IMG/VR virus record: IMGVR_UViG_3300020446_000095
Span: 1 to 21,689 of that record
Source of the DNA: a virus
Length of the DNA stretch: 21,689 bases
Strand: one strand, 5' to 3'
A program made the position numbers and the translations under genes. The notes below the pieces were generated by a model. It saw nothing but the letters and a program-made list of their open reading frames with translations, ran no database searches and was not told where the DNA came from. Within the stretch, counting starts at the first letter, position 1. Each line of letters begins with the position of its first letter. Shown piece after piece: positions 8,915-21,689 of the stretch.

Positions 8915-9120
8915 TATTGCTTCTTTCGGTTTTTCCTACCTGATATCACACGAAGATTTTTTTTCCTATTGTTTTTAGGATTGCCATCCTTGTGATCAAT
9001 ATGTTTCCCATCACCCTTCTTGACTTTCCCTTGGCGTATCGCTGCCCTACGGTTCTTATTCCGTAACGCCCTCTCCTTCTTCATTTTATCAGAGGAATGG
9101 TATTTCTTGTATTCAGACAA
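8914..9120 (-). CDS. Small HNH-type endonuclease next to terminase
   Basis: This protein of about 68 residues is very basic and ends with GKHIDHKDGNPKNNRKKNLRVISGRKNR. That is the HNH signature DHxDGNxxNN followed by NLRV, without zinc Cys pairs. The frame is open back to a GTG at 9168, but I prefer the TTG at 9120: an AAAGGAA Shine-Dalgarno precedes it, the product then starts SEYKKYHSSDKMKKERA, and the upstream palindromes stay outside the gene. The start is therefore uncertain. HNH proteins beside terminase genes are known in many phages, where some help terminase cut DNA (e.g. HK97 gp74). The stop codon is coupled to the terL start. Confidence 0.75.
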   Translation of the reverse strand: MSEYKKYHSSDKMKKERALRNKNRRAAIRQGKVKKGDGKHIDHKDGNPKNNRKKNLRVISGRKNRKKQ

Positions 9121-9140
9121 AAGATTTTCCTTTACAGATA

Positions 9141-9245
9141 TGATTAACCATATATCATGGTATACCACATACCATGATTAACCAAACATATTATGAAATA
9201 ATATGTATTATGATATACCTTGGAAAGAGACATGGTATACCATGT
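9141..9245. promoter_or_regulatory. GGTATACC palindrome array, copy A
   Basis: This short region between divergent genes contains several related dyads. A perfect 16-bp palindrome ACATGGTATACCATGT lies at 9230-9245. TGATATACCT lies at 9211-9220. ATGGTATACCA lies at 9157-9167 inside a larger inverted repeat (ATCATGGTA at 9154-9162, TACCATGAT at 9170-9178). A separate perfect dyad, ACATATTAT GAA ATAATATGT, lies at 9186-9206. A 10-base direct repeat TGATTAACCA flanks the first group (9141-9150, 9175-9184). The same full palindrome and TGATATACCT recur near 21.3 kb. Candidates are operator sites for a dimeric regulator or iteron-like replication sites. Confidence 0.65.
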
Positions 9246-9266: not shown

Positions 9267-9497
9267 GTGGTAATTGAACCATTCTTAATGTGGAACCTTG
9301 TAATCACCTTAGTGATAGCTCCACTAGCATGGTACATCAAAACACAGCGTGACGAAATCAAGCGTATCGACATTCTCCTCAACAAAACCAGAGAGCAATA
9401 CATGAACAAGGTTGAACACAAAGATGATATCAACCGATTGTTTGAACACCTATCCAGATTAGAAAACAAAATAGATACCTTATTAACGTCAAAGTGA
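9267..9497 (+). CDS. Small membrane-anchored coiled-coil protein
   Basis: This 76-residue protein starts at GTG 9267 with Shine-Dalgarno AAAGGAG six bases upstream. Residues 8-24 (MWNLVITLVIAPLAWYI) form one hydrophobic segment. The rest is a charged coiled coil (RDEIKRIDILLNKTREQ... RLFEHLSRLENKIDTLL). Single-span proteins with a coiled coil of this size are frequent in tailed phages near lysis or packaging genes. They resemble XhlA-like or pinholin/spanin-type membrane proteins, but no specific family can be proven. It is oddly placed: the only plus-strand gene between the two terminase subunits, directly downstream of the palindrome array. Confidence 0.75.
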   Translation: MVIEPFLMWNLVITLVIAPLAWYIKTQRDEIKRIDILLNKTREQYMNKVEHKDDINRLFEHLSRLENKIDTLLTSK

Positions 9498-9678
9498 CAT
9501 TTGGCATTTTTTACCAAATTGTTTGAGCATATTACTATATATATATGCGTGTATGTGTGTGCGTATACATGGGGGGTGGGGGTAGGTGGGTTCTATTTTT
9601 TATGGTTTTTAGGTGATTTAGTGCCAAAAAAAATAACATAATGTAGATTATGCGCCTTATTGTAGCTAAGTTATTGTT
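9498..9678. other. Intergenic region with alternating Py-Pu tract and G-rich block
   Basis: The gap between two convergent genes holds 36 bases of perfect pyrimidine-purine alternation (9536-9571, TA steps passing into TG and CG steps). This runs straight into the G-rich block 9571-9590 (runs of 6, 5, 2 and 3 Gs). An AT-rich stretch follows. The alternation favours Z-DNA or cruciform structure, and the G runs could form a two-tier quadruplex. It abuts the small terminase gene, so a cos/pac or replication role is possible but not shown. Confidence 0.6.
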
Positions 9679-10649: not shown

Positions 10650-10871
10650 ATGACAAACCCACTTTCAAAATTAGCTGACGTTATCCAACAAGATCACAAG
10701 AAAATCGAAGAGCATACAGTTAAATCATTAAGAAATGTTTTAACAACTGATATCAAAGAATATGGCTTTGATAATGAAAATATATCAGATCATGATGTTG
10801 ATTTGCTGCTTAAACTGGTTGGTAACATTGTGAAATCTAAATGCCGTCAAGTCTATAACGATGAAATATAA
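10650..10871 (+). CDS. Small protein of unknown function, first gene of plus-strand operon
   Basis: This 73-residue protein (MTNPLSKLADVIQQDHKKIEEH...) starts at ATG 10650, chosen over an in-frame upstream start because AAGGAAAGCAAAAC precedes it, the leader type used throughout this operon. It is rich in Asp, Lys and Leu and predicted mostly helical, with VDLLLKLVGNIVKSKCRQVYNDEI at the end. The 67-residue protein at 13501-13704 has a similar plan: a charged helix, then 'T..I.KE....YGF..ISD..L..L.KL...'. The two may be distant paralogues. No function is known to me. As the first gene after P1 it is expected to be expressed early. Confidence 0.7.
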   Translation: MTNPLSKLADVIQQDHKKIEEHTVKSLRNVLTTDIKEYGFDNENISDHDVDLLLKLVGNIVKSKCRQVYNDEI

Positions 10872-10884
10872 ACATTAATTAAGT

Positions 10885-10910
10885 GAGTGGCTGAAAAAAA
10901 ACAGCCACTC
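10885..10910 (+). terminator. Intercistronic hairpin with A8 loop
   Basis: A perfect 9-bp stem GAGTGGCTG/CAGCCACTC encloses a loop of eight As, between the first and second operon genes. No U-tract follows, so RNA stabilisation or processing is as likely as termination. It belongs with the recurring hairpins in this operon. Confidence 0.5.
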
Positions 10911-10950
10911 AAACGACTAGTAACCAACAATAAAATAAGGAAAATCAAAC

Positions 10951-11328
10951 ATGGCTAAATTACACCACACCGAATATAAGAAGAACTATAAAGAGTACAT
11001 CTTAGGAAACATTCACGAAGATATTGAAGGCAACCCAATAAGCTCTGAAGCTGACAAGATCAAATATATTTTTGATAGGTTTAACAGTGAGTATGGTTTT
11101 AGAATAAACCAAGTTGGAAGGCTTGCAGCGATGACTGAATGGCTACAAGGTTTAGCTTTAGATATCGAATACACCAACGGCTCAATTTATCAATTAGCGT
11201 GGGAAATGGGTTCTATTGAGTTTAACCCTGAGCCAACAGATAAAGAAATTTTCAAGATAGTTAATAATTACTGGCGTTTTATGGCAAATATCATTTTAGG
11301 ATTTGAATCAAGAAAGGTGCAAAAATAA
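10951..11328 (+). CDS. Hypothetical protein, possible phage accessory protein
   Basis: This 125-residue soluble protein (MAKLHHTEYKKNYKEYILGNI...) is preceded by the leader AAGGAAAATCAAAC. It is mainly helical and aromatic-rich (EWLQGLALDIEYTNGSIYQLAWEMG... VNNYWRFMANIILGF). The middle stretch, EYGFRINQVGRLAAMTEWLQGLALDIEY, is characteristic of small early proteins in several phages, but I know no function. The stop codon overlaps the next start (TAATG). No Cys pairs, nucleotide-binding loop or membrane span is visible. Confidence 0.75.
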   Translation: MAKLHHTEYKKNYKEYILGNIHEDIEGNPISSEADKIKYIFDRFNSEYGFRINQVGRLAAMTEWLQGLALDIEYTNGSIYQLAWEMGSIEFNPEPTDKEIFKIVNNYWRFMANIILGFESRKVQK

Positions 11329-11570
11329 TGGAAAACAATATCTCAAAACAAGCGCAAGAAATTGCAAATAATGCAACACGATTACCAAACGATATAAACG
11401 GTAATCCTAGGTATTACGTTTGGTATTACGCTTTTGATGGTGAAAGACCACCATTTGCGACCATGTATCGTGGTAAAAAATACGGCTCAGGTTGGGTTTT
11501 CCAATCTTACTATCTAGCTGACACTGTACAAAAATCACTAGATCAACTTAAAAAGAAAGGTAACAAATGA
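11328..11570 (+). CDS. Small hypothetical protein
   Basis: This 80-residue protein (MENNISKQAQEIANNATRLPND...) is translated from an ATG overlapping the upstream stop, with Shine-Dalgarno AAAGGTG inside the previous gene. An N-terminal helix is followed by an aromatic, beta-like region (RYYVWYYAFDGERPPFATMYRGKKYGSGWVFQSYYLAD) and a basic helix. A dense run of Tyr, Trp and Phe with Arg and Lys suggests a small nucleic-acid-binding or protein-binding domain, but this is only inference. It overlaps the next gene by 4 nt (ATGA). Confidence 0.7.
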   Translation: MENNISKQAQEIANNATRLPNDINGNPRYYVWYYAFDGERPPFATMYRGKKYGSGWVFQSYYLADTVQKSLDQLKKKGNK

Positions 11571-11761
11571 TTAAACAGTTTAAAGAAGCAATTAATGAAG
11601 CTGCAGCAAGAGAAGAAAACCTTTTTAAAGATGGTTCTATAAATTGGGACTATGTAGACGCTGATCTTTCTATTGATGGTTGGCGCGAAAAAATAGGTGA
11701 AGAAATCTTTATTGCAACCATAGATGAATCAGCAACTTTACAGAGAAAGGAGTCAGCATGA
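11567..11761 (+). CDS. Small acidic hypothetical protein
   Basis: This 64-residue protein (MIKQFKEAINEAAAREENLFKD...) overlaps both neighbours by 4 nt (ATGA at each end), indicating strong translational coupling. It has an amphipathic N-terminal helix, then an acidic Asp/Trp region (GSINWDYVDADLSIDGWREKIGEEIF). No recognised domain. The Shine-Dalgarno AAAGGTAAC lies inside the upstream gene. Confidence 0.7.
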   Translation: MIKQFKEAINEAAAREENLFKDGSINWDYVDADLSIDGWREKIGEEIFIATIDESATLQRKESA

Positions 11762-11985
11762 CTGTGAAATGTAACAACATAATAGTTGAGCATTATGGGA
11801 CTAAAATTTCCATTGCTCAACACTTCGATGGTGACAAAGTTGTAGTCCAAGAAGTTCAAATAGTAAGTGGTAACTTGACTGGTCACACTTGGAATTTCGA
11901 AGGCTCTTTAACTGGCTTATCTGGTGTATTGTCAGCCATTGAAGAAGACTTAAACATTAACTCAAATAAGGAAGGCAGCAATTAA
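11758..11985 (+). CDS. Small hypothetical protein, probably beta-rich
   Basis: This 75-residue protein (MTVKCNNIIVEHYGTKISIAQH...) has alternating hydrophobic strands (NNIIVEHYGTKISIAQHFDGDKVVVQEVQIVSG) then a Gly/Leu-rich helix. This suggests a small beta-sandwich or ubiquitin-like shape, without a family match. It starts with a strong Shine-Dalgarno (AAAGGAG) and 4-nt coupling to the gene before. Its last codons (GGC AGC AAT TAA) form half of an intercistronic hairpin, so the stop codon sits in the loop. Confidence 0.7.
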   Translation: MTVKCNNIIVEHYGTKISIAQHFDGDKVVVQEVQIVSGNLTGHTWNFEGSLTGLSGVLSAIEEDLNINSNKEGSN

Positions 11986-11993
11986 GCTGCCTT
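11972..11993 (+). repeat. Stop-codon hairpin AAGGCAGC/GCTGCCTT (copy 1)
   Basis: An 8-bp stem AAGGCAGC/GCTGCCTT with the stop codon TAA in its 6-nt loop, followed by TCAAACTT. The same stem occurs at 13223-13244 and a close variant at 14772-14799. Each lies about 21-25 nt before the next start codon. Confidence 0.6.
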
Positions 11994-12018
11994 TCAAACT
12001 TAATAGAAAGGTGAAGTA

Positions 12019-12261
12019 ATGAAAATAACAGATAAAGAATTTGATTTAAGCGCATGGAGTAACGCAAGAAAGCTACAACAAGCGCATGAAATACTAGTAG
12101 TTAATGAAACGATTTTAGAAGGTGGTGGCAGCTTCACTATTGAAGGATATAACGCAATTATCAAGCTGCTTAAATCTTTAATTAACCCTAGTAGACAAGA
12201 TTTAACTATGAAGAATTTTCTAGTTAATCGAATTAATAAAATTGAAATACTAAAAATATAA
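12019..12261 (+). CDS. Small hypothetical protein
   Basis: This 80-residue helical protein (MKITDKEFDLSAWSNARKLQQA...) has a good Shine-Dalgarno (GAAAGGTG) and follows the first AAGGCAGC hairpin. It has a possible coiled coil in the middle (RKLQQAHEILVVNETILEGGGSFTIEGYNAIIKLLKSL) and a basic, AT-rich C-terminus. No family is recognised. It is directly upstream of the ArdC-like gene (25-nt gap), so co-expression is likely. Some small genes beside antirestriction genes also act against host defences, but nothing in the sequence shows that here. Confidence 0.7.
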   Translation: MKITDKEFDLSAWSNARKLQQAHEILVVNETILEGGGSFTIEGYNAIIKLLKSLINPSRQDLTMKNFLVNRINKIEILKI

Positions 12262-12286
12262 AAAACTAATAGAAGGAAAACAAACA

Positions 12287-13234
12287 ATGGTTAAAAGACA
12301 GAAAAAAGATGTACACCAAGTAATAACAAATCAAGTATTGGAAGCTATTGACTACGCCAAGGTTAACAATATCAAGTTAAACTGGACTAAGTCTTGGAAG
12401 TCAGGCAAAGCAATATCAAGACCTTTACGATCTTCTCCATTTGGTACGCCTTACAAAGGCATTAACGCATTGCTGCTTCTTATGTCATCAAGTATTAACG
12501 GCTTCGACTCCCCTTACTTCATGACATATAAACAAGCGCAAGAAATAACTGGACTAGAAAAACCAGTTATCACAGGCTCTAAGGGTACAATGGTTGTATT
12601 CTACAAGCAGCTCACAAGAGAAGAAAAGACAACCGACTCTAATGGTGTTGAGACTGTACAAGAAGTTGGCATTCCTATGCTTAGAACCTTTACAGTATTT
12701 AATGCTTGCCAAGTTGAAGGCTTACCAGAAAAGTTTTTTCCAAGTAAGCAAGATGAAAAAGAACTAGATCAAAATCAAGATAGCAAGATTGATTATGTTG
12801 AAGAGTTCTTTAGCAACCAAGGTGCAAAGGAATTTGAAAGTAATGGTGGCGCATTCTATAGACCTTCCGATGACTCAATACATATGCCTAAGTTTGAGAG
12901 GTTCTCAAGTTCTTCAGCAGCGTATTCAGTTAGGTCACATGAGTTCATGCACTGGACTGGCTCAGATCATAGGCTCAAGCGTGGTTTAAGCGCATATGAT
13001 AGACCTTCGTATGCTTTTGAAGAGTTAGTAGCTGAACTTGGTGCAGCCTTCCTGATGTCCGATTTTGGACTATTACAAGAGCCAAGTGAAGACACTATAG
13101 CGTATCTTGATAGTTGGTCTAAGTGCCTGAAGGAAAATAAGAAAGCCATATTTAAGGCTTGCACTTTAGCAAGCCAAGGCGTGGACTTCATGCATGATCT
13201 AAACGAAAAAGCAAATAATAACAAGGCAGCTTAA
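12287..13234 (+). CDS. ardC: ArdC-like antirestriction protein with zincin domain
   Basis: This 315-residue protein has the two-domain ArdC layout. The N-terminal DUF1738/ssDNA-binding-like part (about 1-130) includes the diagnostic RPLRSSPFGTPYKGINALLLL and SPYFMTYKQAQEITG... KGTMVVFYKQL. The C-terminal zinc metallopeptidase-like part has HExxH at residues 218-222 (SHEFMHWTGSDHRLKR) and a downstream Glu-rich helix (AFEELVAELGAAFL, about 243-256) likely to give the third zinc ligand. Plasmid ArdC proteins protect incoming single-stranded DNA from restriction enzymes. Phage copies are expressed early and probably shield phage DNA. Its stop codon lies in the loop of a second AAGGCAGC hairpin. 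The Shine-Dalgarno is AAGGAAAACAAACA. Confidence 0.9.
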   Translation: MVKRQKKDVHQVITNQVLEAIDYAKVNNIKLNWTKSWKSGKAISRPLRSSPFGTPYKGINALLLLMSSSINGFDSPYFMTYKQAQEITGLEKPVITGSKGTMVVFYKQLTREEKTTDSNGVETVQEVGIPMLRTFTVFNACQVEGLPEKFFPSKQDEKELDQNQDSKIDYVEEFFSNQGAKEFESNGGAFYRPSDDSIHMPKFERFSSSSAAYSVRSHEFMHWTGSDHRLKRGLSAYDRPSYAFEELVAELGAAFLMSDFGLLQEPSEDTIAYLDSWSKCLKENKKAIFKACTLASQGVDFMHDLNEKANNNKAA

Positions 13235-13244
13235 CGGCTGCCTT
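13223..13244 (+). repeat. Stop-codon hairpin AAGGCAGC/GCTGCCTT (copy 2)
   Basis: This stem is identical to that at 11972-11993, with loop TTAACG holding the TAA stop of the ArdC-like gene. ACAACC follows, with no U-tract. The next start codon is 21 nt after the stem. Confidence 0.6.
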
Positions 13245-13265
13245 ACAACCAAGAAAGGAAACAAA

Positions 13266-13484
13266 ATGTCTAAACTAGAATTTACAGCAAGGTTGCTAAT
13301 GATACTTATGGGTGTTTTTAGCTTAATGATTGTGTTTGTCATGAAAGACTCAATGGATAGCACATTAATGGAAGGACTGTTCACACTTGATAGATTAAAG
13401 GACTCAGTATGTGCAGTTATGGGAATAATATTCTTTGTTAACTCAGGGTTATTTTTTTTCCTAGCCATTCCAAAAACTAATTAA
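13266..13484 (+). CDS. Small two-span membrane protein
   Basis: This 72-residue protein has two hydrophobic segments, about residues 8-27 (ARLLMILMGVFSLMIVFVMK) and 49-68 (VCAVMGIIFFVNSGLFFFLA). They are joined by an acidic loop of about 20 residues (DSMDSTLMEGLFTLDRLKD). The Shine-Dalgarno is GAAAGGAAAC. Two-span small membrane proteins in phages can be holins, superinfection-exclusion factors or unknown early proteins. It lies 3.7 kb from the endolysin, so a holin role is less likely than for the 49-residue gene at 17364. Confidence 0.7.
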   Translation: MSKLEFTARLLMILMGVFSLMIVFVMKDSMDSTLMEGLFTLDRLKDSVCAVMGIIFFVNSGLFFFLAIPKTN

Positions 13485-13500
13485 GAAAGGAAAACGAACA

Positions 13501-13704
13501 ATGGAAAAATCAAGATTTGTTAAACTAAATCAAGCAATAGAAAGAGATTTCGAAACTCTGAGAGAAGCCACTGTAGCAAGTATAAGAAAAGAACTTCATC
13601 TACATGGCAAATATTATGGGTTTCGTGGCATATCTGACGAGCAGCTTTACTCACTAACAAAGCTATTGCGTAAAACATTTAGAGAAGAACAAGCAAAACT
13701 TTAA
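13501..13704 (+). CDS. Small helical protein, possibly paralogous to first operon gene
   Basis: This 67-residue basic helical protein (MEKSRFVKLNQAIERDFETLRE...) ends KYYGFRGISDEQLYSLTKLLRKTFREEQAKL. The pattern 'Y-G-F ... I-S-D ... L ... L-x-K-L' also appears in the 73-residue protein at 10650 (KEYGFDNENISDHDVDLLLKLV), which suggests distant paralogy. The Shine-Dalgarno leader is AAAGGAAAACGAACA. No enzymatic or metal-binding motif. Function unknown. Confidence 0.7.
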   Translation: MEKSRFVKLNQAIERDFETLREATVASIRKELHLHGKYYGFRGISDEQLYSLTKLLRKTFREEQAKL

Positions 13705-13727
13705 TCAACTAAACTAAGGAAAATCAA

Positions 13728-13970
13728 ATGTCTAAAAACATATCAAAAACATTTTTTAAAATAGGTGAGAGTTACGAAGATTGTAAACACTGTGGCGAGG
13801 TTACTTATACAAGTATTGAATATGTAACCAACTCAAAAGTTGAGTGCATGAGCTATGTTTACGATAGAGAGTGCTTTGACTGTGGAGAGATTGCATACGC
13901 TGAGAATGGGTTCTTGTATAAAGATGAGTTGTATTGCCAGGACTGTTGTCCTGAAGGATATGGAGAATAA
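13728..13970 (+). CDS. Small zinc-binding protein
   Basis: This 80-residue protein has several CxxC-type pairs: CKHC near residue 18, CFDC near residue 51, and CQDC followed by another Cys near the C-terminus. It also has a single Cys in the centre. That is enough for two zinc sites, in a layout like a LIM/zinc-ribbon domain. The leader AAGGAAAATCAAATG is the operon standard. Such small Zn proteins in early phage operons often bind DNA, RNA or host proteins, but no target can be named here. Confidence 0.7.
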   Translation: MSKNISKTFFKIGESYEDCKHCGEVTYTSIEYVTNSKVECMSYVYDRECFDCGEIAYAENGFLYKDELYCQDCCPEGYGE

Positions 13971-13974
13971 TCAA

Positions 13975-14184
13975 ATGAACCAACAAGAAATAAAAGAAGC
14001 GTTTGAATACGCAAGTGAAGAGATACTTCAAGGCTATATGCTTATGAGTAAAGACAATGGCTATCTACACTTTAAACATAAGCTAACAAGAGAGTATATA
14101 AAGATACCAACCAAGGAGAGTTTGTATCCAAAAACTAACCCAACAAAAGAAAGGAAAATAAAATGGAAAAACATAACTGTCTAG
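13975..14184 (+). CDS. Small hypothetical protein
   Basis: This protein of 69 residues starts at ATG 13975 (MNQQEIKEAFEYASEEILQGYM...). I chose this start because GGAGAATAATCAA before it mirrors the operon's usual leader. An in-frame ATG at 13960 is the alternative. The frame is open further upstream but overlaps the zinc protein. It has a predicted helix, then a short beta-like part (NGYLHFKHKLTREYIKIPTKESLYPK) and a Lys-rich end. It overlaps the next gene by 22 nt. No known family. Confidence 0.6.
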   Translation: MNQQEIKEAFEYASEEILQGYMLMSKDNGYLHFKHKLTREYIKIPTKESLYPKTNPTKERKIKWKNITV

Positions 14185-14426
14185 ATCATCTTGAATGGTT
14201 TGAAGAAGAAGTTCCTAATGGTGATAACGATATGTATGTCCACTCTGGATATGTATGTGAAGTTTGTGGAGAATATCCTGACACACATGAGATCAAAAAA
14301 CATTTTAAATTGAAGGAAGCAAAAGAAAAACTTTCTTCTCTCTATGATCTGGTCAGTGAATATTTTCCAGATACAGCATCAGCTATATCGATGGCTGAGG
14401 ATACACTTCTAAAAGAAAATAAATGA
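14163..14426 (+). CDS. Small protein with Cys-pair zinc motif
   Basis: This 87-residue acidic protein (MEKHNCLDHLEWFEEEVPNGDN...) has Cys6, His9 and a CEVCGEYPDTHEIKKH segment near residues 32-47. The CxxC plus His residues suggest one zinc-binding site. The second half is a charged helix (LKEAKEKLSSLYDLVSEYFPD). The Shine-Dalgarno AAAGGAAAATAAA overlaps the end of the preceding gene. Function unknown. It is the second of three small Cys-rich genes in this operon. Confidence 0.7.
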   Translation: MEKHNCLDHLEWFEEEVPNGDNDMYVHSGYVCEVCGEYPDTHEIKKHFKLKEAKEKLSSLYDLVSEYFPDTASAISMAEDTLLKENK

Positions 14427-14446
14427 TAACAACAAAGGAAAATCAA

Positions 14447-14635
14447 ATGATCACATTTAAAAATGAGCTGCCGATAGATCATGAATCTAGTCTAAACGAT
14501 ATAGCAAAAAACTTTGCAACTCTTTATGACGAAGACGAGTTCACTACTGAGGACTGGGATTATCTATATGAACAGGCGTGGAACTCCATAGAAGAACACT
14601 TAAAATCTGAGGGTTTGGAAATGGAGTGTAATTAA
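14447..14635 (+). CDS. Small acidic hypothetical protein
   Basis: This 62-residue, strongly acidic protein (MITFKNELPIDHESSLNDIAKN...) starts at ATG 14447, which follows AAAGGAAAATCAA. An in-frame ATG at 14423 overlaps the previous stop but has a poorer leader. The sequence is predicted helical with Trp and Tyr residues (DWDYLYEQAWNSIEEHLKSEG). Small acidic phage proteins sometimes mimic DNA or bind host enzymes, but nothing specific shows that here. It is the last gene before the second promoter. Confidence 0.65.
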   Translation: MITFKNELPIDHESSLNDIAKNFATLYDEDEFTTEDWDYLYEQAWNSIEEHLKSEGLEMECN

Positions 14636-14687
14636 CTATGTTGACATTTGTTCATTTATCACTATAATAAATGTTGAACATAGTTTA
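14634..14687 (+). promoter_or_regulatory. Promoter P2 flanked by an imperfect inverted repeat
   Basis: TTGACA (14641-14646) and TATAAT (14663-14668) are spaced 16 nt apart. The left flank AACTATGTTGACATTT and the right flank AAATGTTGAACATAGTTT (14669-14686) are near-complementary, so the promoter lies inside a dyad. The right arm holds the exact dyad ATGTTGAACAT (14671-14681), also found upstream of P1. The 16 bases at 14637-14652 equal those at P1. This suggests both promoters share a regulator. Confidence 0.7.
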
Positions 14688-14771
14688 ACGACTCGTGTTC
14701 GTTTGCTTTTTGAAATCGCTATAAATTAGTCGTAGTCATTCAAGACGATGATCGACATTCACAATTAACAA

Positions 14772-14799
14772 GAAGGCAGCAATGGTTATTGTTGCCTTC
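14772..14799 (+). repeat. Leader hairpin GAAGGCAGCAAT/ATTGTTGCCTTC (copy 3)
   Basis: A 12-bp stem with one G-U pair and a GGTT tetraloop lies 25 nt before the next start codon. Its core matches the AAGGCAGC stems at 11972 and 13223. It lies in the untranslated leader of P2, which holds no gene between 14636 and 14824. Confidence 0.6.
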
Positions 14800-14824
14800 A
14801 TATAACATTGAAGGAAAACAAATC

Positions 14825-15049
14825 ATGAAACAAACAGTTAATAAAAATGATATCGCAGCATTAAAGAAAGATGGGTTTGATCAAGAGCTTATCGAAAAAC
14901 TTTTTAATGTTAAGAAAGAAAGAAACTACTCTTTCAATCAAGAGCAAGTAAGACAAAACGCTATCAGAGTATTAGGCGTTATGGACAAGCTAACACAATC
15001 ACAACGTAAGAGAGTGTTAAACTTTGCTCTAAAGGTTAATGAGGTTTAG
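14825..15049 (+). CDS. Small hypothetical protein, first gene after P2
   Basis: This 74-residue basic helical protein (MKQTVNKNDIAALKKDGFDQEL...) starts at ATG 14825 with leader GAAGGAAAACAAATC. The open frame extends upstream through the hairpin but with no start context. The C-terminal half, QVRQNAIRVLGVMDKLTQSQRKRVLNFALKVNEV, is amphipathic helix. It resembles a compact helical DNA-binding or assembly domain, though no family is recognised. The next gene starts 2 nt after its stop, so the two are probably translated together. Confidence 0.7.
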   Translation: MKQTVNKNDIAALKKDGFDQELIEKLFNVKKERNYSFNQEQVRQNAIRVLGVMDKLTQSQRKRVLNFALKVNEV

Positions 15050-15051
15050 TC

Positions 15052-15597
15052 ATGAAAGGTGGTGACTTCGAATGCTTAGGCAATGTTAAGCTACCTGATG
15101 ACTGGGCAGCCAACAGAGTCGAAACCTTAGTCAAGATGTTTCAAGACCAAGGCGAAACTATATCTGATGAAAGACGAGAAATACTTTACAAAGACTCTTT
15201 GAGGGTGGCGCATATTGAAGAACAAGCTGAGATATGGAAAAACAGTTTGTTCACTGTGCTGCTTTACAAGGGTAAGTATGCAGATGAAATGGTACATCAC
15301 CCTGATATCCAAGGTAAATGTGCATGGTTATCTATCAAAAGAAATGACAAGAGCGACAGAATCTTCTGGCATGAAAAGATGAAGATGGTTCAGTTACTTC
15401 TTGGCAGAGATTGGTTGGGGATAGAAATCTATCCACCTTACAAATTCACTGTTGATACAGCTAACCAATATCATATCATTTGTATACCACCTGATTATGT
15501 TGATGGCTTCCCCTTTGGTTGGAAGCACAGAGAGATCAACGACATTGACAGTAAAGGTGGCTTTGGAAAGTTAGGTCAGAAGTATAGAGGTAATTAA
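15052..15597 (+). CDS. Phage protein of unknown function, DUF7694-like
   Basis: This 181-residue protein (MKGGDFECLGNVKLPDDWAANR...) carries a C-terminal domain with CAWLSIKRNDKSDRIFWHEKMKMVQLLLGRDWLGIEIYPP and VDTANQYHIICIP... FPFGW. I associate this pattern ('LSIKR..., VQ-LLG, EIYP, VDTANQYH') with the phage-associated DUF7694. The family has no established function. It is one of the few operon genes over 150 residues. Its stop overlaps the next small ORF (TAATG). The N-terminal 60 residues are charged and helical. Confidence 0.75.
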   Translation: MKGGDFECLGNVKLPDDWAANRVETLVKMFQDQGETISDERREILYKDSLRVAHIEEQAEIWKNSLFTVLLYKGKYADEMVHHPDIQGKCAWLSIKRNDKSDRIFWHEKMKMVQLLLGRDWLGIEIYPPYKFTVDTANQYHIICIPPDYVDGFPFGWKHREINDIDSKGGFGKLGQKYRGN

Positions 15598-15737
15598 TGA
15601 GTAAACAGATGGAGTTCATATTCCCTGAAGAGTTTGATACTCTTGGGTTAGATCAAGAAAACTATCTGTTATATTTATGGCTGCTCTTAGATGAAGAAGA
15701 AACCACTGACAACCAAAGTGATCAACCAAAAACCTGA
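15597..15737 (+). CDS. Very small acidic protein (46 residues)
   Basis: An ATG overlapping the upstream stop (TAATG) opens a frame of 46 residues, MSKQMEFIFPEEFDTLGLDQ followed by an aromatic Leu-rich stretch (ENYLLYLWLLLDEEE) and a polar tail. An AGAGG Shine-Dalgarno lies seven bases upstream. The coupling and the filling of an otherwise empty gap support it as a real gene. It is acidic and probably forms one amphipathic helix. No function known. Confidence 0.55.
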   Translation: MSKQMEFIFPEEFDTLGLDQENYLLYLWLLLDEEETTDNQSDQPKT

Positions 15738-15837
15738 TAACAGGTTGAAGGTGGTTTCTAATCAAAAGCTACATAGAGAGTGGCTTATAAAACAAATCAA
15801 TAAAGAACTAAAAGAAAAGGAAAATCAAAATGGTTAA
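15691..15837 (+). CDS. Possible very small basic protein (48 residues)
   Basis: A frame of 48 residues (MKKKPLTTKVINQKPDNRLKVV...) starts at ATG 15691, overlaps the preceding small ORF by 47 nt in another frame, and ends 8 nt inside the next gene. It is strongly basic, with a helical end (HREWLIKQINKELKEKE). The Shine-Dalgarno is weak. It would close the gap before the next gene completely, which fits the packing of this operon, but it could be chance. Confidence 0.4.
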   Translation: MKKKPLTTKVINQKPDNRLKVVSNQKLHREWLIKQINKELKEKENQNG

Positions 15838-16102
15838 ACAATCTAAAAATAAAAATGTTCCAAGTGTAAAAGTATGCGATCAGGATATGCGTAATCTGTT
15901 AGAGTTAACAAATGCTATCAAAGATTTACGCAATGAAACTTCAGAGCATTGCGATATATCGTACAAGAATATTCAAAACATAGTAGGAAATCTTCATGTC
16001 TTAGCTAACATTTTTAAATTCAAACAGCCTACTTCTGAGAATGGTGATCTACTTTGGTACTCAGATTATGAGCTGTCAGAAGGAGGTAAGGACAATGGTT
16101 AA
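15830..16102 (+). CDS. Small hypothetical protein
   Basis: This 90-residue protein (MVKQSKNKNVPSVKVCDQDMRN...) is preceded by the typical leader AAAAGGAAAATCAAA. A basic N-terminus is followed by a helical central region (RNLLELTNAIKDLRNETSEHCDISYKNIQNIVGNLHVLANIFKF) and an acidic tail. No motif recognised. It overlaps the next gene by 8 nt, and the end of this gene carries the strong Shine-Dalgarno AAGGAGG for its neighbour. Confidence 0.7.
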   Translation: MVKQSKNKNVPSVKVCDQDMRNLLELTNAIKDLRNETSEHCDISYKNIQNIVGNLHVLANIFKFKQPTSENGDLLWYSDYELSEGGKDNG

Positions 16103-16331
16103 ACTTGATGTTAATAGAGGTGACTTAGATCACGCAGTATCTACTATGAAGGATTTAAGAAGGATAGCTGACGCTGTTAAAGTGCAGATATCAGGTGACA
16201 TGGTAAACGTAAAACTTAAACACTTGCCTAGCTGCGTAGATGAAGAGTTTCAGATCACCTACAAAAGAGGATACACAAGCGTGGGTGAATCTATCGATAA
16301 CGTAATTAATTTCTTGGAGGGATTGGAGTAA
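16095..16331 (+). CDS. Small hypothetical protein
   Basis: This 78-residue protein (MVKLDVNRGDLDHAVSTMKDLR...) starts at ATG 16095 with an excellent Shine-Dalgarno (AAGGAGGTAAGGAC), one of the strongest in the operon. The frame opens upstream, but only this start has that site. A helix is followed by beta-like strands (AVKVQISGDMVNVKLKHL... EEFQITYKRGYTSV), compatible with a small alpha/beta fold. It shares one base with the next gene (TAATG). Function unknown. Confidence 0.7.
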   Translation: MVKLDVNRGDLDHAVSTMKDLRRIADAVKVQISGDMVNVKLKHLPSCVDEEFQITYKRGYTSVGESIDNVINFLEGLE

Positions 16332-16546
16332 TGCCAAATTCAAAACAACTGTCTTTAATTTTAAATAAAGTAGAGAGATATATAAAAGAACAAATCAAAA
16401 AGGAATCTATGCCTAGACTTGGAGTTAACGATGACTCCAGTATTCTTGACGCTCAAAAAGATGGCGAGATTATTGGTAGAGCAAATCTTTCCGAAGAGTT
16501 ACTAGATATGATTTCTGATTTAAGAAAGGAATACAATGAAAAATAA
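16331..16546 (+). CDS. Small hypothetical protein
   Basis: This 71-residue protein (MPNSKQLSLILNKVERYIKEQI...) is helical and charged at both ends (EELLDMISDLRKEYNEK). It starts in a TAATG overlap, with the GGAGG of the preceding gene as Shine-Dalgarno. The central NDDSSILDAQKDGEIIGRANLSEE is probably a loop. It overlaps the next gene by 11 nt. No recognised family. Confidence 0.65.
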   Translation: MPNSKQLSLILNKVERYIKEQIKKESMPRLGVNDDSSILDAQKDGEIIGRANLSEELLDMISDLRKEYNEK

Positions 16547-16730
16547 TAAAGATAAGAAGTTTAGAGTAACTTTCGCACCTATAGGAAGCCTTAGTTACAC
16601 ATACGAAGTCGAAGTTAACGATGAGAACAATGCTTATGATGTTGCAAGACAAGACTTCAAAATGGACATTGGACACGATAGATCAAAAGACTTTGAGATC
16701 GTGGGAATGGAGGAGATTAAAAATGACTAA
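16536..16730 (+). CDS. Small hypothetical protein, alpha/beta
   Basis: This 64-residue protein (MKNNKDKKFRVTFAPIGSLSYT...) has strands KFRVTFAPIGSLSYTYEVEVN followed by a helix (NAYDVARQDFKMDIG) and a final strand (DFEIVGMEEI). The pattern is similar to small single-domain proteins that bind nucleic acid or other proteins. The start lies in the preceding gene, with AAAGGA upstream. It overlaps the following gene by 8 nt. Function unknown. Confidence 0.65.
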   Translation: MKNNKDKKFRVTFAPIGSLSYTYEVEVNDENNAYDVARQDFKMDIGHDRSKDFEIVGMEEIKND

Positions 16731-16956
16731 GAAAAAGGACTTCACAGCCGAAACATTGTTTTGGCTGTGGCATAACAAATGTCCATTAAACAAATGGTCA
16801 GTTAAAACAGAAGATGTAAACGATGATGGCACAAGGATTGTTCGTGTTGAATACGTTATTCCTAAAACTGAGGATTACGTTAAAGACATAAAGAAACAAG
16901 TCGATGACAAACTACAAGCTATCATGAAAGGTGGGCATTTTTCTGATGATGGCTGA
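16723..16956 (+). CDS. Small hypothetical protein
   Basis: This 77-residue protein (MTKKKDFTAETLFWLWHNKCPL...) starts at ATG 16723, preceded by GGAGGAGATTAAA. It has an aromatic helix (AETLFWLWHNK), then strand-like KWSVKTEDVNDDGTRIVRVEYVIP, and ends with a charged helix. The final codons overlap the endolysin start. No family recognised. Its place before the endolysin is suggestive, but it has no hydrophobic span and so is not a holin. Confidence 0.65.
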   Translation: MTKKKDFTAETLFWLWHNKCPLNKWSVKTEDVNDDGTRIVRVEYVIPKTEDYVKDIKKQVDDKLQAIMKGGHFSDDG

Positions 16957-17362
16957 AGCTCTGATGTGTCTTGCTCTTAACGTATATTTCGAAGCTAGGA
17001 GCGAGAACATGGCATCACAAATGGCAGTATCGTTAGTTGTGATGAATAGAGTTGAAGACCAGAGATTTCCCAATACAGTTTGTGGAGTCGTCAAACAAGG
17101 ACTTAGATATAAGAACGACAAAGTTGTTTTGGGGAAATGCCAGTTCAGTTGGTACTGTGATGGCAAGCCTGATAAACCTAAGAATAAACAGGCATGGTTG
17201 AAGGCAAAACAAGTAGCGTCAATAGTGTTAGATGGCAGCATGGTTGATTTCACTGAGGGATCAACCCACTACCATGCGTACTATGTCTATCCCTCGTGGC
17301 GTAAAACAATAACAAAAGTGACTAGGATAGACAGTCACATATTTTATCGATGGGAGCAGTGA
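16946..17362 (+). CDS. Endolysin, SleB-type cell wall hydrolase (Hydrolase_2)
   Basis: This protein of about 138 residues matches the SleB family of cell wall hydrolases, lytic transglycosylases that cut peptidoglycan. The signature reads ALNVYFEARSE (likely catalytic Glu near residue 16), AVSLVVMNRVEDQRFPNTVCGVV, CQFSWYCDG, VASIVLDGS, DFTEGSTHYHAYYVYPSW and THIFY-like SHIFYRWEQ. It is a single catalytic domain with no signal peptide, so it needs a holin to reach the wall. A 49-residue membrane protein follows at once. The start is uncertain: I chose ATG 16946 over GTG 16931 and ATG 16949. SleB-type endolysins are frequent in phages of marine alphaproteobacteria. Confidence 0.9.
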   Translation: MMAEALMCLALNVYFEARSENMASQMAVSLVVMNRVEDQRFPNTVCGVVKQGLRYKNDKVVLGKCQFSWYCDGKPDKPKNKQAWLKAKQVASIVLDGSMVDFTEGSTHYHAYYVYPSWRKTITKVTRIDSHIFYRWEQ

Positions 17363-17363
17363 T

Positions 17364-17513
17364 ATGTATAACGAGTGGATAGATTTTGGGTTTACCCTTT
17401 GGATTGTCTTAATGTTTCTGGTGGGTATGCCTTTGCTACTAGAATGGCTATGGCTATTCTATAAAACAATAATTGGAAAGGAAAATCATGAACGAACTAC
17501 AGGAAAGGATTGA
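17364..17513 (+). CDS. Short membrane protein after endolysin, holin candidate
   Basis: A 49-residue frame starts 1 nt after the endolysin stop, with a good Shine-Dalgarno (GGGAG, seven bases before ATG). Residues 10-34 (FTLWIVLMFLVGMPLLLEWLWLFYK) are one long hydrophobic span with a Gly-Met-Pro break. A short acidic N-terminus precedes it, and a charged tail (KENHERTTGKD) follows. It overlaps the next gene by 26 nt. A single-span small protein directly coupled to an endolysin is a classic position for a holin. That is inference from hydrophobicity and context. Confidence 0.6.
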   Translation: MYNEWIDFGFTLWIVLMFLVGMPLLLEWLWLFYKTIIGKENHERTTGKD

Positions 17514-17766
17514 TGATCTCAATGTCTTGATAAAACAAATCAATAACAAGGAGAGAGATTATCTCAAGCGATGGAGTGATGTTGATGAAGCAGCTACTAT
17601 CATTCAAGGTCTTATATCAATGATTAAGCTAGATGTATTAGAGTTAGTGGTTAAGTATAAGTTTGATATGAAGACCTTAGACATAGCTATGGAAGAGCAT
17701 CACTTATCATCAAGTAAGAATGTGAACTATATCTTTAACCCAAATATAACAAAAGAAGGAAAGTAA
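17488..17766 (+). CDS. Small coiled-coil protein
   Basis: This 92-residue protein (MNELQERIDDLNVLIKQINNKE...) starts at ATG 17488 with leader AAAGGAAAATC. The first half is a regular coiled coil (NELQERIDDLNVLIKQINNKERDYLKRW), followed by another helix and a polar tail. The gene after the endolysin and holin candidate is sometimes a lysis-associated protein such as a spanin, but this one has no membrane segment or lipobox. Function unknown. The stop is followed 3 nt later by the next start. Confidence 0.65.
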   Translation: MNELQERIDDLNVLIKQINNKERDYLKRWSDVDEAATIIQGLISMIKLDVLELVVKYKFDMKTLDIAMEEHHLSSSKNVNYIFNPNITKEGK

Positions 17767-17769
17767 ATT

Positions 17770-18147
17770 ATGATTATAGATTTTAAAAACCACAAGCCTG
17801 CGATTGTAAAACTTACAAAGACAATGTTAGACAAAGCTATCATTGATGCAAACACAAGTATCAGAGAATTTTCTAAACTTGTTGGTGTAGATTTTAACGA
17901 TATGAAGTCAGGCGATAAGGCACAGATATGTGCTGAGTTTCTTGATGGCACTAAGACACTTCTAAGTTTCTATCGAACAAGAAACGACAGAGGTGATAGA
18001 CGTTTCTCTATCAAGGGAATCAAATCACAAGCAGCCGTTGATGACACCATAGCTATAACCTTTAAACACAAGGATAATGGTGACATGGTGTTGGTTGTTA
18101 ACGTGACTAAAAACCAAGAATACAAACATTTATTAGAAAGGAAATGA
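17770..18147 (+). CDS. Hypothetical protein
   Basis: This 125-residue protein (MIIDFKNHKPAIVKLTKTMLDK...) has a strand-rich C-terminal part with LSFYRTRNDRGDRRFSIKGIKSQAAVDDTIAITFKHKDNGDMVLVVN. Arg/Gly-rich loops between strands suggest DNA binding or an effector-binding domain. This resembles, distantly, the sensing domain found with some restriction enzymes, but I would not assign it. The leader is AAGGAAAGTAAATT. The stop is 1 nt before the next start. Confidence 0.65.
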   Translation: MIIDFKNHKPAIVKLTKTMLDKAIIDANTSIREFSKLVGVDFNDMKSGDKAQICAEFLDGTKTLLSFYRTRNDRGDRRFSIKGIKSQAAVDDTIAITFKHKDNGDMVLVVNVTKNQEYKHLLERK

Positions 18148-18148
18148 A

Positions 18149-18469
18149 ATGAAAGTAGATAACAGCATGGAACACATAAAGTTCTTACTGGATAACATGG
18201 AGTTAAATGAAACATACATGAATGATCCAAGAAATTATGTTAAAGCCTTTGAAAAGATAGTTCTTGGTCTTAAACCAATAGTTAAGAGCAAGGAAATCGA
18301 ACCACAGGAATTTGTTATAGCTCTTACATTATACTCTATTGAGATGATGTTTATGTATGCACCTAAAAAGAATGTGGCTCTCTATACCTTACTCGATATG
18401 ATCAAAGCCAAGTTGGATATGATACGCATTGAGGAAGGAACAGAGAAAGACATTGATGGCGAAGCCTAA
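18149..18469 (+). CDS. Hypothetical protein, helical
   Basis: This 106-residue helical protein (MKVDNSMEHIKFLLDNMELNET...) is rich in Met, Leu and Lys. It has a long hydrophobic helix near residues 49-68 (QEFVIALTLYSIEMMFMYAP) that is amphipathic rather than clearly membrane-spanning. It is the last gene before the terminator of the plus-strand operon. Coupled to the preceding gene with AAAGGAAATGAA as leader. No family recognised. Confidence 0.65.
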   Translation: MKVDNSMEHIKFLLDNMELNETYMNDPRNYVKAFEKIVLGLKPIVKSKEIEPQEFVIALTLYSIEMMFMYAPKKNVALYTLLDMIKAKLDMIRIEEGTEKDIDGEA

Positions 18470-18531
18470 AAATGTTAACTCTGGGAACAATCAAATCATG
18501 ATTACTTCATAGTTTGATTTTCCTTCAACTT

Positions 18532-19463: not shown

Positions 19464-21242
19464 CTAAAAAGGCAAGTCATCGTCATCTTTATATGGCATC
19501 TTGATCTTTTTAGGTTCCACTATTGTAGGCTTAATAATCTTTGGTTCGACATATTCATTGTAATGACTTGTATCAGTATCAAAAGATAACTCTGTTGAGC
19601 CTTGTTTACCTATCCAGTTAAAACGCATCTTCCATATTATTATCTGAGTTACATCATCTAAGTCTGGTCTTGGTCTATGCACTGTCATTCCACAGTCCGA
19701 CTTACTAAACCATGCTGATGATCCTGATATATCATATCCTTTTGGTGGTGGTACTTTACCAGTGCTATCACGCATCATCTTAGTTGGGTGAGCTACAAAC
19801 CAAACGTGAACACCATAAGACTGAGCAAACACTCTTAGTCTTGTTAACATATCGGAGATGTAATCTGTTTCCGACATATTGTTAGCCTTGGTTATATAGT
19901 TGTATGGATCGATAACCACACCACGAATACCATAGCGCATGACGGATACTCGAAGTCTTTCGATGATGCTATCAAGGCTAGTCAGGCTGCCATCACGTTG
20001 ATACAAGAAAGAAAAGTGTTCAGATACAAAGTCTTTACCTTTTTGTAATTCCTCTTGGCTCATTCTTGGCTTCTCACCTTCATAGAAAGGCTTGCCGATA
20101 TACTTCGATATAAGCTTGGCTATATGCACCTTCGGTTCGTTCTCGAAGCTACAGATGGAGAACTTCCAATCAAACTCTCTTGCCATGTTCATCATGACGG
20201 AATCAATAAACTCAGACTTACCTGATGAAGGGTGTCCTGTAACAATAGTGAGCTGCCCTTCAACAATGCTATAGTATTCATCAACACTGGGATAGCCTGT
20301 GCTTTTGCCTTTACCAAATCCCTTGGCATATATCTCATTCACTTCTTCATAGAAGTCTGATGGACTATACAAGCCTGCGACTGGATAAGGTTGAGCGTTA
20401 TCGACAATATTTTTAAGAAGGTCTTTACCATGCTGCACAATAACATCATTAGCGTCTTTGCAGCCTTCAGGATATTCTAGCTTCCAACATTTATCTTTGC
20501 CAATACGTCTAGCCATTTCTTCAGCCATAGCTATACCTGCCGAATCATTATCAGTGGCTATGATGACCTTCTCTACGCTTTCTATGATGTCCTTGGCGTT
20601 CCAGATAAAACGAAACTTGTTATCGTCTGATGGATCGATACGACCATCTGTTACCTTCATGATAGCACCATGAGGAACTGAGCATACATTGTCTACAGAT
20701 GCCTCTATAAAAGCGCAGCAATCCATCTCACCTTCACATATTATCAAAGGCTCTTCAGGGTTTATGTTATCGATGTTAAAGAAGGTTTTAGGTGATCCAT
20801 CACAAGCAAAACCTTTCTCGCTGATAGACCTGATTTTAGACGCATACTTGTGACCATTCGATTGATAAGGAAACGTAATACATTCGGTTCTTGATCCTAC
20901 ACTTTGTATGTAATTGTGTGTTGTTTTTATGCCTAACTTTTCTGCTGTTTGCTCTGTTATTCCTCTTGATTTTAACCATTCTAAACCTTTATCAGACAAT
21001 GGCTGCACATCATTCAACCTAACCAACTCCATACCGAATACCTCTCCTTTATTATCGAATCTTTTTGCACCTGAAGTGCCACAGTGATGACACATATAGA
21101 CAAATTTATCTGCTGTAATATTAACAGATAATGTCTTTAAATTTTTCTTTTTTCTGTTTTGACAATCGACACTTGGGCAACGCAGTTTATACTGTCCAAT
21201 ACTATACCCATGTATCGTGTCGAGAATACTTTCTACGTTCAC
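19464..21242 (-). CDS. Bifunctional DNA primase-helicase (T7 gp4-like)
   Basis: This 592-residue protein combines primase and replicative helicase. An N-terminal zinc ribbon (Cys22, 27, 51, 54) precedes the TOPRIM domain with IICEGEMDCCAF (about 167-178) and IIATDNDSAGIAMAEEMA (about 227-244). The RecA-like helicase domain has Walker A GHPSSGKS (336-343), Walker B GVVIDPYN (441-448), and VHVWFVAHPTKMMRD, the 'H3' region. It starts at GTG 21242, after GAGGTG. The last residues are acidic, KDDDDLPF, closely resembling the SSB C-terminal tip (DDDIPF). A promoter with an overlapping inverted repeat lies just upstream, and a terminator lies in the HNH gene downstream. Confidence 0.95.
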   Translation of the reverse strand: MNVESILDTIHGYSIGQYKLRCPSVDCQNRKKKNLKTLSVNITADKFVYMCHHCGTSGAKRFDNKGEVFGMELVRLNDVQPLSDKGLEWLKSRGITEQTAEKLGIKTTHNYIQSVGSRTECITFPYQSNGHKYASKIRSISEKGFACDGSPKTFFNIDNINPEEPLIICEGEMDCCAFIEASVDNVCSVPHGAIMKVTDGRIDPSDDNKFRFIWNAKDIIESVEKVIIATDNDSAGIAMAEEMARRIGKDKCWKLEYPEGCKDANDVIVQHGKDLLKNIVDNAQPYPVAGLYSPSDFYEEVNEIYAKGFGKGKSTGYPSVDEYYSIVEGQLTIVTGHPSSGKSEFIDSVMMNMAREFDWKFSICSFENEPKVHIAKLISKYIGKPFYEGEKPRMSQEELQKGKDFVSEHFSFLYQRDGSLTSLDSIIERLRVSVMRYGIRGVVIDPYNYITKANNMSETDYISDMLTRLRVFAQSYGVHVWFVAHPTKMMRDSTGKVPPPKGYDISGSSAWFSKSDCGMTVHRPRPDLDDVTQIIIWKMRFNWIGKQGSTELSFDTDTSHYNEYVEPKIIKPTIVEPKKIKMPYKDDDDLPF

Positions 21243-21266: not shown

Positions 21267-21299
21267 GACCAGAATAGTAAATAATTTTTTTCTGGTCAA
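21267..21299 (-). promoter_or_regulatory. Promoter of primase-helicase with overlapping inverted repeat
   Basis: Minus-strand TTGACC (plus 21294-21299) and TATTCT (plus 21271-21276) are spaced 17 nt, a plausible sigma-70 promoter. The perfect inverted repeat GACCAGAA/TTCTGGTC (21267-21274 with 21290-21297) overlaps both boxes, so a bound dimer would block polymerase. An AT-rich spacer lies between. It is 25-57 nt upstream of the GTG start. Confidence 0.6.
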
Positions 21300-21320: not shown

Positions 21321-21381
21321 ACATGGTATACCATGTTACATGATATACCTATTATAATGATATACTACTTGGTATACCATG
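21321..21381. promoter_or_regulatory. GGTATACC palindrome array, copy B
   Basis: The perfect 16-bp palindrome ACATGGTATACCATGT (21321-21336) is identical to that at 9230-9245. It is followed by TGATATACCT (21341-21350), TGATATACT (21358-21366) and TTGGTATACCATG (21369-21381). The last two lie in the end of the resolvase gene (codons of its HGIPSSISL ending); the first two lie between the two genes, upstream of the primase-helicase promoter. Confidence 0.7.
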
Positions 21382-21689
21382 ACTATCAAATGGTGTCAGC
21401 CGTATGATAGCTCTTGGGTTCTCCTTGTCTAATCCCCAATAGATTGTTTTCTTTTTGACTTGCCTATCATTTTTATACACAAGACCTTGAAGGCAATCCA
21501 AGATTAAACTCTCGTCTAAGTCTGGTCTTCTCGAAGCGTAGTAGATCATGATGTCTATAGCTACATCACACTCTATTATTGGATCAAGTTGTGGACATTG
21601 TTTCTTAAATCCATTGACATACGATAATGCCTTTTTAGATTTTATCGGCACTATCCTGTTATGTATCTTTACAAGCTTTCTTTGATTGG
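21352..21689 (-). CDS. RusA-like Holliday junction resolvase (5' end outside window)
   Basis: The visible 112 codons end with ASRRPDLDESLILDCLQGLVYKNDRQVKKKTIYWG. This is the RusA signature of acidic residues in 'RPDLD', 'LILDCL' and 'KNDRQV', corresponding to the catalytic Asp residues that bind Mg2+ and cut Holliday junctions. A GTG at 21651 could be read as a start, but the frame stays open to the window edge and those residues (NQRKLVKIHNRIVPIKSKKA) fit the RusA N-terminus, so the gene almost certainly continues outside. In phages such enzymes resolve branched DNA before packaging. Its stop lies in the palindrome array, and it is likely transcribed toward the primase-helicase. Confidence 0.85.
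   Translation of the reverse strand, partial: NQRKLVKIHNRIVPIKSKKALSYVNGFKKQCPQLDPIIECDVAIDIMIYYASRRPDLDESLILDCLQGLVYKNDRQVKKKTIYWGLDKENPRAIIRLTPFDSHGIPSSISL

Follow-up and report, generated by a model that had tools for sequence, protein, structure and literature searches.

A twin palindromic element, conserved in position and lineage-specific in sequence, at the primase and terminase loci of uncultivated phages

In phage lambda, OR and OL are clusters of dimer-type palindromes of ~16-17 bp, located at two control regions of one genome. The lambda replication origin is composed of about four imperfect inverted-repeat iterons (19 bp) beside an AT-rich unwinding region, and lies partly in coding DNA (PMC7466680). 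Phage SPP1 has two origins, oriL and oriR, ~12-13 kb apart and bound by gp38, both of which combine a common set of repeats with an AT-rich unwinding element, and this phage switches to concatemers with a resolvase, an exonuclease, an annealing protein and an SSB (PMC6316719, PMC3485210).

The viral DNA analysed here, hereafter the window (21,689 nucleotides), belongs to a clade of mostly marine phages that have not been cultivated and have no known lysogeny genes, and shares features with each of these systems. As in SPP1, (i) a repeat element with an AT-rich tract is present in two copies, one lying with the replication genes and the other in the late region, and (ii) a Holliday-junction resolvase, an exonuclease, an annealing protein and an SSB are phage-encoded. 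However, the SPP1 repeats are direct whereas the present ones are palindromes, an initiator, a loader and a helicase have been identified in SPP1 whereas a primase-helicase fusion and no recognised initiator are found here, and here the repeat sequence varies by lineage and three contigs are without one copy. Several imperfect inverted-repeat iterons beside an AT-rich tract are shared with the lambdoid origin, but lambda has one origin, inside gene O, whereas the two copies described here lie outside any recognised initiator gene, array B overlapping rusA and array A being intergenic, between terS and terL. The clustering of ~16-17 bp dimer-type palindromes at two control regions is also that of lambda OR/OL, from which the present arrays differ by the lack of an adjacent regulator gene, by a variable distance to the promoter and by an AT-rich tract that is co-conserved between the copies.

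Two arrays of palindromic sites in the window

The sites and the adjoining genes are listed in Table 1. Array A (9138-9245) comprises five sites upstream of hnh-terL and fills the gap between the HNH gene and the small membrane-protein gene (start 9267), 12.1 kb from array B. The start of the HNH gene was set at the TTG at 9120 because it is preceded by the typical ribosome site of this phage, AAGGAAAAT.

Table 1. Coordinates of the array sites and of the adjoining features in the window
Feature	Position	Strand	Remarks
Terminase large subunit (terL)	7406-8914	-	
HNH endonuclease	8914-9120	-	first gene in the terL direction; TTG start (own reading); phage-type ribosome-binding site AAGGAAAAT
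Array A site 1, ATATGATTAACCATAT	9138-9153		17 bp from site 2; ATATGGTTAACCATAT in relatives
Array A site 2, TCATGGTATACCACAT	9155-9170		
Array A site 3, CCATGATTAACCAAAC	9172-9187		17 bp from site 2
AT-rich tract TATTATGAAATAATATGTAT	9188-9207		within array A
Array A site 4, TTATGATATACCTTGG	9208-9223		TTATGGTATACCTTGG in relatives
Array A site 5	9230-9245		perfect palindrome, same as array B site 1; deleted in L091
Small membrane/coiled-coil protein	9267-9497	+	divergent from hnh-terL; phrog_12220
Primase-helicase (Toprim + DnaB_C)	19464-21242	-	PF03796, PF13155; phrog_239, E 6e-96
Promoter-like pair of the primase-helicase gene	21271-21299	-	TTGACC (21299-21294), 17 bp, TATTCT (21276-21271)
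Array B site 1, ACATGGTATACCATGT	21321-21336		perfect 16-bp palindrome; intergenic; same in all close relatives
Array B site 2, ACATGATATACCTATT	21338-21353		17 bp from site 1; ATATGGTATACCTATT in L031/L005
RusA Holliday-junction resolvase	21352-21687	-	PF05866; 5' end outside the window; 3' end holds part of array B
Array B putative site 3, ATAATGATATACTACT	21355-21370		within rusA codons; not conserved
Array B site 4, ACTTGGTATACCATGA	21367-21382		within the last rusA codons; near-perfect palindrome

A first-pass annotation of this DNA had described, at 21321-21381, a full palindrome and three degenerate sites, two of them inside the end of the resolvase gene. The array is indeed present, with a perfect palindrome and further sites, and the sites at 21355 and 21367 do fall in the final rusA codons, since the stop of rusA is at 21352-21354 and is merely touched by site 2. 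Regarding the three sites described as degenerate, the one at 21338 was upheld, the one at 21367 is nearly perfect, and the one at 21355 is probably not a genuine site, because a codon deletion removes it in L031/L032, where the adjacent 21338 site is a better match.

The 16-mer ACATGGTATACCATGT of array B recurs identically at 9230-9245. Allowing up to 3 mismatches, it matches the window 4 times (0.17 expected), and 3 sites lie within 90 bp. Because short palindromes occur commonly and the window has a high AT content, a chance or compositional artefact could be suspected, but this explanation is refuted and its probability can be considered negligible: the observed values were reached in 0/100 shuffles (4 matches), in 0/200 first-order Markov resamplings of the window (clustering) and in 0/200,000 permutations of the same-genome comparison described below. 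Exact single matches to the 16-mer in the unrelated contigs L010, L017, L022 and L023 are not part of an array and were treated as chance occurrences or separate elements. In two of these, both 40-kb phage contigs, a perfect palindrome of 48 bp, GGAATATGAACAATGTACATGGTATACCATGTACATTGTTCATATTCC, is centred on the 16-mer (L010, 3962-4009; L023, ~355-402).

An inverted repeat, GACCAGAA-15-TTCTGGTC, spans the primase promoter (21267-21297), is kept in a shortened form in L030 and L031, and is possibly a second operator.

The element in close and distant relatives

Both arrays are retained in close relatives, and G002 (22,281 bases) has the two in one contig. The perfect site of array A is missing from L091 by a clean deletion, and this copy is therefore dispensable. 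The same contig bears on the possibility that the arrays are packaging sites, the small terminase subunit (TerS) binding the array near terL in the manner of the lambda cosB R sites, with array B as a second docking site. This explanation would agree with the position of array A between terS and terL, ~300 bp from a conserved G-rich cos/pac-like element, and with the assignment of TerS to a helix-turn-helix domain family (PF03592). However, TerS is swapped in L091 for a 37%-identical version, TerL being still 98% identical, and the array motif is unchanged; furthermore, packaging would not explain why a copy lies upstream of the primase gene. TerS was rejected as the binder since the motif does not follow it, and a packaging role appears very improbable.

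The overlap of array B with rusA had led the first-pass annotation to propose that selection acts on both, in which case synonymous sites within the array would not vary freely among close relatives. The codons GGT ATA CCA AGT of the 21367 site are identical in 5/5 rusA haplotypes, and rusA differs between the window and L031 by 39 synonymous changes across 110 codons; the codons of the 21355 site do vary. The comparison does not contradict dual selection but argues only weakly for it, because just four codons are involved, their invariance by chance has a probability of roughly 0.1 (own estimate), and the 21355 codons change. In RusA relatives at 66-70% identity (L033-L039), the context downstream of rusA is different and no such sites were found.

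Upstream of more distant primase-helicase homologs (57-60% identity), palindromes are also present, of different sequence, and are followed in most cases by TTGACA-N17/18-TATCGT. In 10 of the 13 contigs that hold both loci, the element upstream of the primase gene is the same as that upstream of terL, each lineage having its own palindrome at both loci: ACATGGTATACCATGT in the window, ACTAGTTATAACTAGT (two times at each locus in G026), TGTACTATATAGTACA with TAGTACATATGTACTA or near variants (G015, G024 and G028), ATCGAWAGCTWTCGAT (G017), CTAATAATTAG (G027), and others, including other AT-rich or inverted-repeat elements common to both loci in G019, G021 and G023. The terL copy is found alone in three contigs (G016, G018 and G022), and in G018 the ortholog of the small membrane-protein gene likewise comes next after the array. 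In G026, G015, G028, G027 and G002, the alignment of the two copies covers the greater part of the element and takes in the AT-rich portion; their relative orientation is inverted in some lineages and direct in others, and they are 9-14 kb apart (window 12.1, G002 11.2, G015 12.2, G026 11.0). In the longest contigs (G015 and G017), no further cluster of the motif was detected, only isolated weaker matches. The same-genome sharing was assessed with one contig per lineage, by summing the longest word shared by the two loci over ten lineages: the sum was 155, whereas permuting the genomes gave 105.9 on average and never more than 149.

A wider survey upstream of terL recovered at least 10 motif types, including ACGGTATACC, AGGTATACCT, ATGGTTATAACCAT, ACTAGTTATAACTAGT, GTACTATATAGTAC, TCGATAGCTATCGA and tandem TAAATACTATTTA, and the motifs differ in the outer bases of the half-sites. 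The array was seen in its most regular form in L168 (1200-1438), with six tandem TAAATACTATTTA palindromes ~16 bp apart immediately upstream of terL. The twin palindromic element was not found in the genome parts examined of the isolates HTVC023P, HTVC027P, CRP-901, DSL-LC04 and 023Pt_psg01, and a search of the accessible literature returned no description of it. The element is conserved in position and lineage-specific in sequence, a pattern that is missed from one genome alone.

Host transcription factor sites borrowed by the phages, for example of the GntR/FadR type, could be considered for the GGTATACC lineages alone. Indeed, the GGTATACC core in the window, G018, G022 and G016 lineages resembles a FadR operator, in that it fits the FadR-subfamily consensus GTM-N0-1-KAC (PMC4494728), and no GntR gene was detected above the cut-off in the phage contigs, as expected if the factor were supplied by the host. 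However, the ACTAGTTATAACTAGT, TCGATAGCTATCGA, CTAATAATTAG and AAGGGACTATA lineages do not fit this consensus although their layout is the same twin one, and the phages would thus have had to adopt an unrelated host factor again and again at this one pair of loci. The likeness to GntR/FadR operators being limited to some lineages, a borrowed host site is improbable.

Candidate functions of the twin element

The twin clusters are probably paired docking sites, either replication origins or gene switches, that co-evolve with the protein that reads them. The reading judged most likely, at somewhat less than an even chance, is that of dual iteron-type replication origins comparable to SPP1 oriL/oriR. 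Four grounds place it first: the layout, the conservation of the AT-rich part in both copies, the stability ranks and a spacing to the promoter that is not fixed. Duplex stability was computed as nearest-neighbour energy in 80-bp windows and ranked over the whole contig. In five contigs (G026, G015, G028, G027 and G021), from four of the lineages, no other place is less stable than the two elements; the pair ranks 2 and 3 in G019, and G020 and G016 each have a single copy at rank 1. The signal is modest in the window lineage, which is low in GC: array A has rank 2 in 21.7 kb and array B falls in the top 1%. The arrays of G018 and G022, which have the terL copy only, are not especially unstable (top 3% and 1.3%, respectively). 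Cumulative GC skew, in which no turn was found at either copy except that due to gene orientation, was rejected as an origin test.

The twin element, its two conserved positions, its lineage-specific sequence, its low stability and its gene neighbourhood are observed here; origin activity, the binder and a fork-barrier step are inferred. Under the origin reading, arrays A and B would be two copies of one cis element, in which 16-bp palindromic protein-binding sites lie around or beside an easily melted AT-rich tract. Once loaded onto the palindromic sites, a lineage-specific dimeric origin-binding protein would open the AT-rich tract and bring in both the primase-helicase of the phage and the polymerase of the host. 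The terL-side copy could act as a late origin or as a fork barrier, and could supply the RusA/exonuclease/Sak/SSB recombination set, initiating concatemer formation. A DNA polymerase A gene was found in 0/17 contigs, and the host replisome must therefore be recruited. Near the primase copy are encoded RusA, a PD-(D/E)XK exonuclease, a Sak annealing protein (PF06378) and an SSB-like protein, which resemble the set used in the SPP1 switch to concatemers. The 9-14 kb spacing is also comparable to that of oriL/oriR, and the variation of promoter distance and copy orientation among lineages is consistent with origins. Several points stand against this reading. No O-like or G38P-like initiator was recognised by Pfam or PHROGs in the scanned early regions, the AlpA-like helix-turn-helix proteins of ten relatives (see below) have no counterpart in the window lineage, AT-rich promoters too can rank as least stable, the stability signal is modest in the window lineage, and G016, G018 and G022 have only the terL copy, which in two of them is not especially unstable. 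In addition, array A directly adjoins the late operon's ribosome-binding site and hence must overlap a promoter, an arrangement that would fit an operator equally.

It is indeed quite possible, though not the preferred reading, that the arrays are operators of a lineage-specific dimeric regulator, probably phage-encoded, which would coordinate the primase operon with hnh/terL or with the divergent small gene. The near-perfect 16-bp palindromes ~17 bp apart, the start of both transcription units at the arrays, and the variation of the outer half-sites, as expected of regulators diverging in specificity, are in favour of operators. Furthermore, the palindromic sites overlap or adjoin promoters, a -10-like TATTAT being located between the last two sites in L092, L098, L100 and L102, and ten relatives encode a small AlpA-like helix-turn-helix protein at the end of the recombination operon (PF05930 in nine, PF12728 in G026). 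However, no regulator was recognised in the window lineage: the AlpA-like gene is not encoded in G000-G002, nor in G017 and G018 (G022 and G024 end before this position), searches of G000-G002 with the PF05930, PF12728 and PF00392 profiles gave no match, and a search for helix-turn-helix proteins in the early region of the window revealed no regulator. Operators would not need the AT-rich part that is co-conserved between the copies, and copy orientation flips by lineage.

The distance to the primase promoter, which is not fixed, also speaks against operators. In the first-pass annotation, the full palindrome was placed ~22 bp upstream of the primase -35 box (21 bp was found), at a position where an activator or a repressor could act. 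The conservation of TTGACA, 17-18 bp and TATCGT ahead of the primase gene in distant relatives supports the promoter, but the array lies 21 bp from it in the window, ~36 bp in G015 and ~100 bp in G026, which argues against a fixed-position activator, and this part of the proposal was dropped. The origin and operator roles are not exclusive, because bound arrays would also affect the promoters that they overlap.

In an abundant group of phages known only from uncultivated material, the arrays mark the two places from which DNA replication and late expression are most likely controlled, and the at least 10 motifs are natural specificity variants with which the binder could be sought by co-variation. 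If the arrays are dual origins, the SPP1 theta-to-sigma scheme would reach far beyond Bacillus phages; if they are operators, a rapidly diversifying regulatory code would be common to replication and packaging genes. A more speculative and rather unlikely proposal is that the twin copies, through their concerted evolution, give adjacent lineages mutually exclusive DNA-binding specificities at both loci, which could amount to replication-compatibility or superinfection-immunity-like recognition by a new kind of binder.

Other features near the arrays and in the early region

Between terS and terL, the window contains a C/G-rich element with alternating purines and pyrimidines, TATATGCGTGTATGTGTGTGCGTATACATGGGGGGTGGGGGTAGGTGGG (9539-9592), which is likely the cos/pac packaging site; such an element is also present upstream of terL in G017, G019, G021, G023 and G026. 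Beside this packaging site, L091 presents a modular swap: compared with the window, TerL and the small membrane gene are 97-98% identical and TerS 37%. In G015 (~37200-37350) and upstream of terL in G021, two strong GC-rich hairpins, for instance GGTGGGG...CCCCACC followed by T-rich sequence, lie downstream of the terL-side array and before the late genes, and are possibly a leader terminator or an antitermination site.

At 10650-18500 of the window, AAGGAAAATCAAATG recurs as the ribosome site of the early genes (repeat families D1-D3). Almost none of the genes of this region are common with relatives, in contrast to the replication and head genes on either side. An ArdC-type antirestriction protein with a zincin metallopeptidase domain is encoded at 12287-13234.
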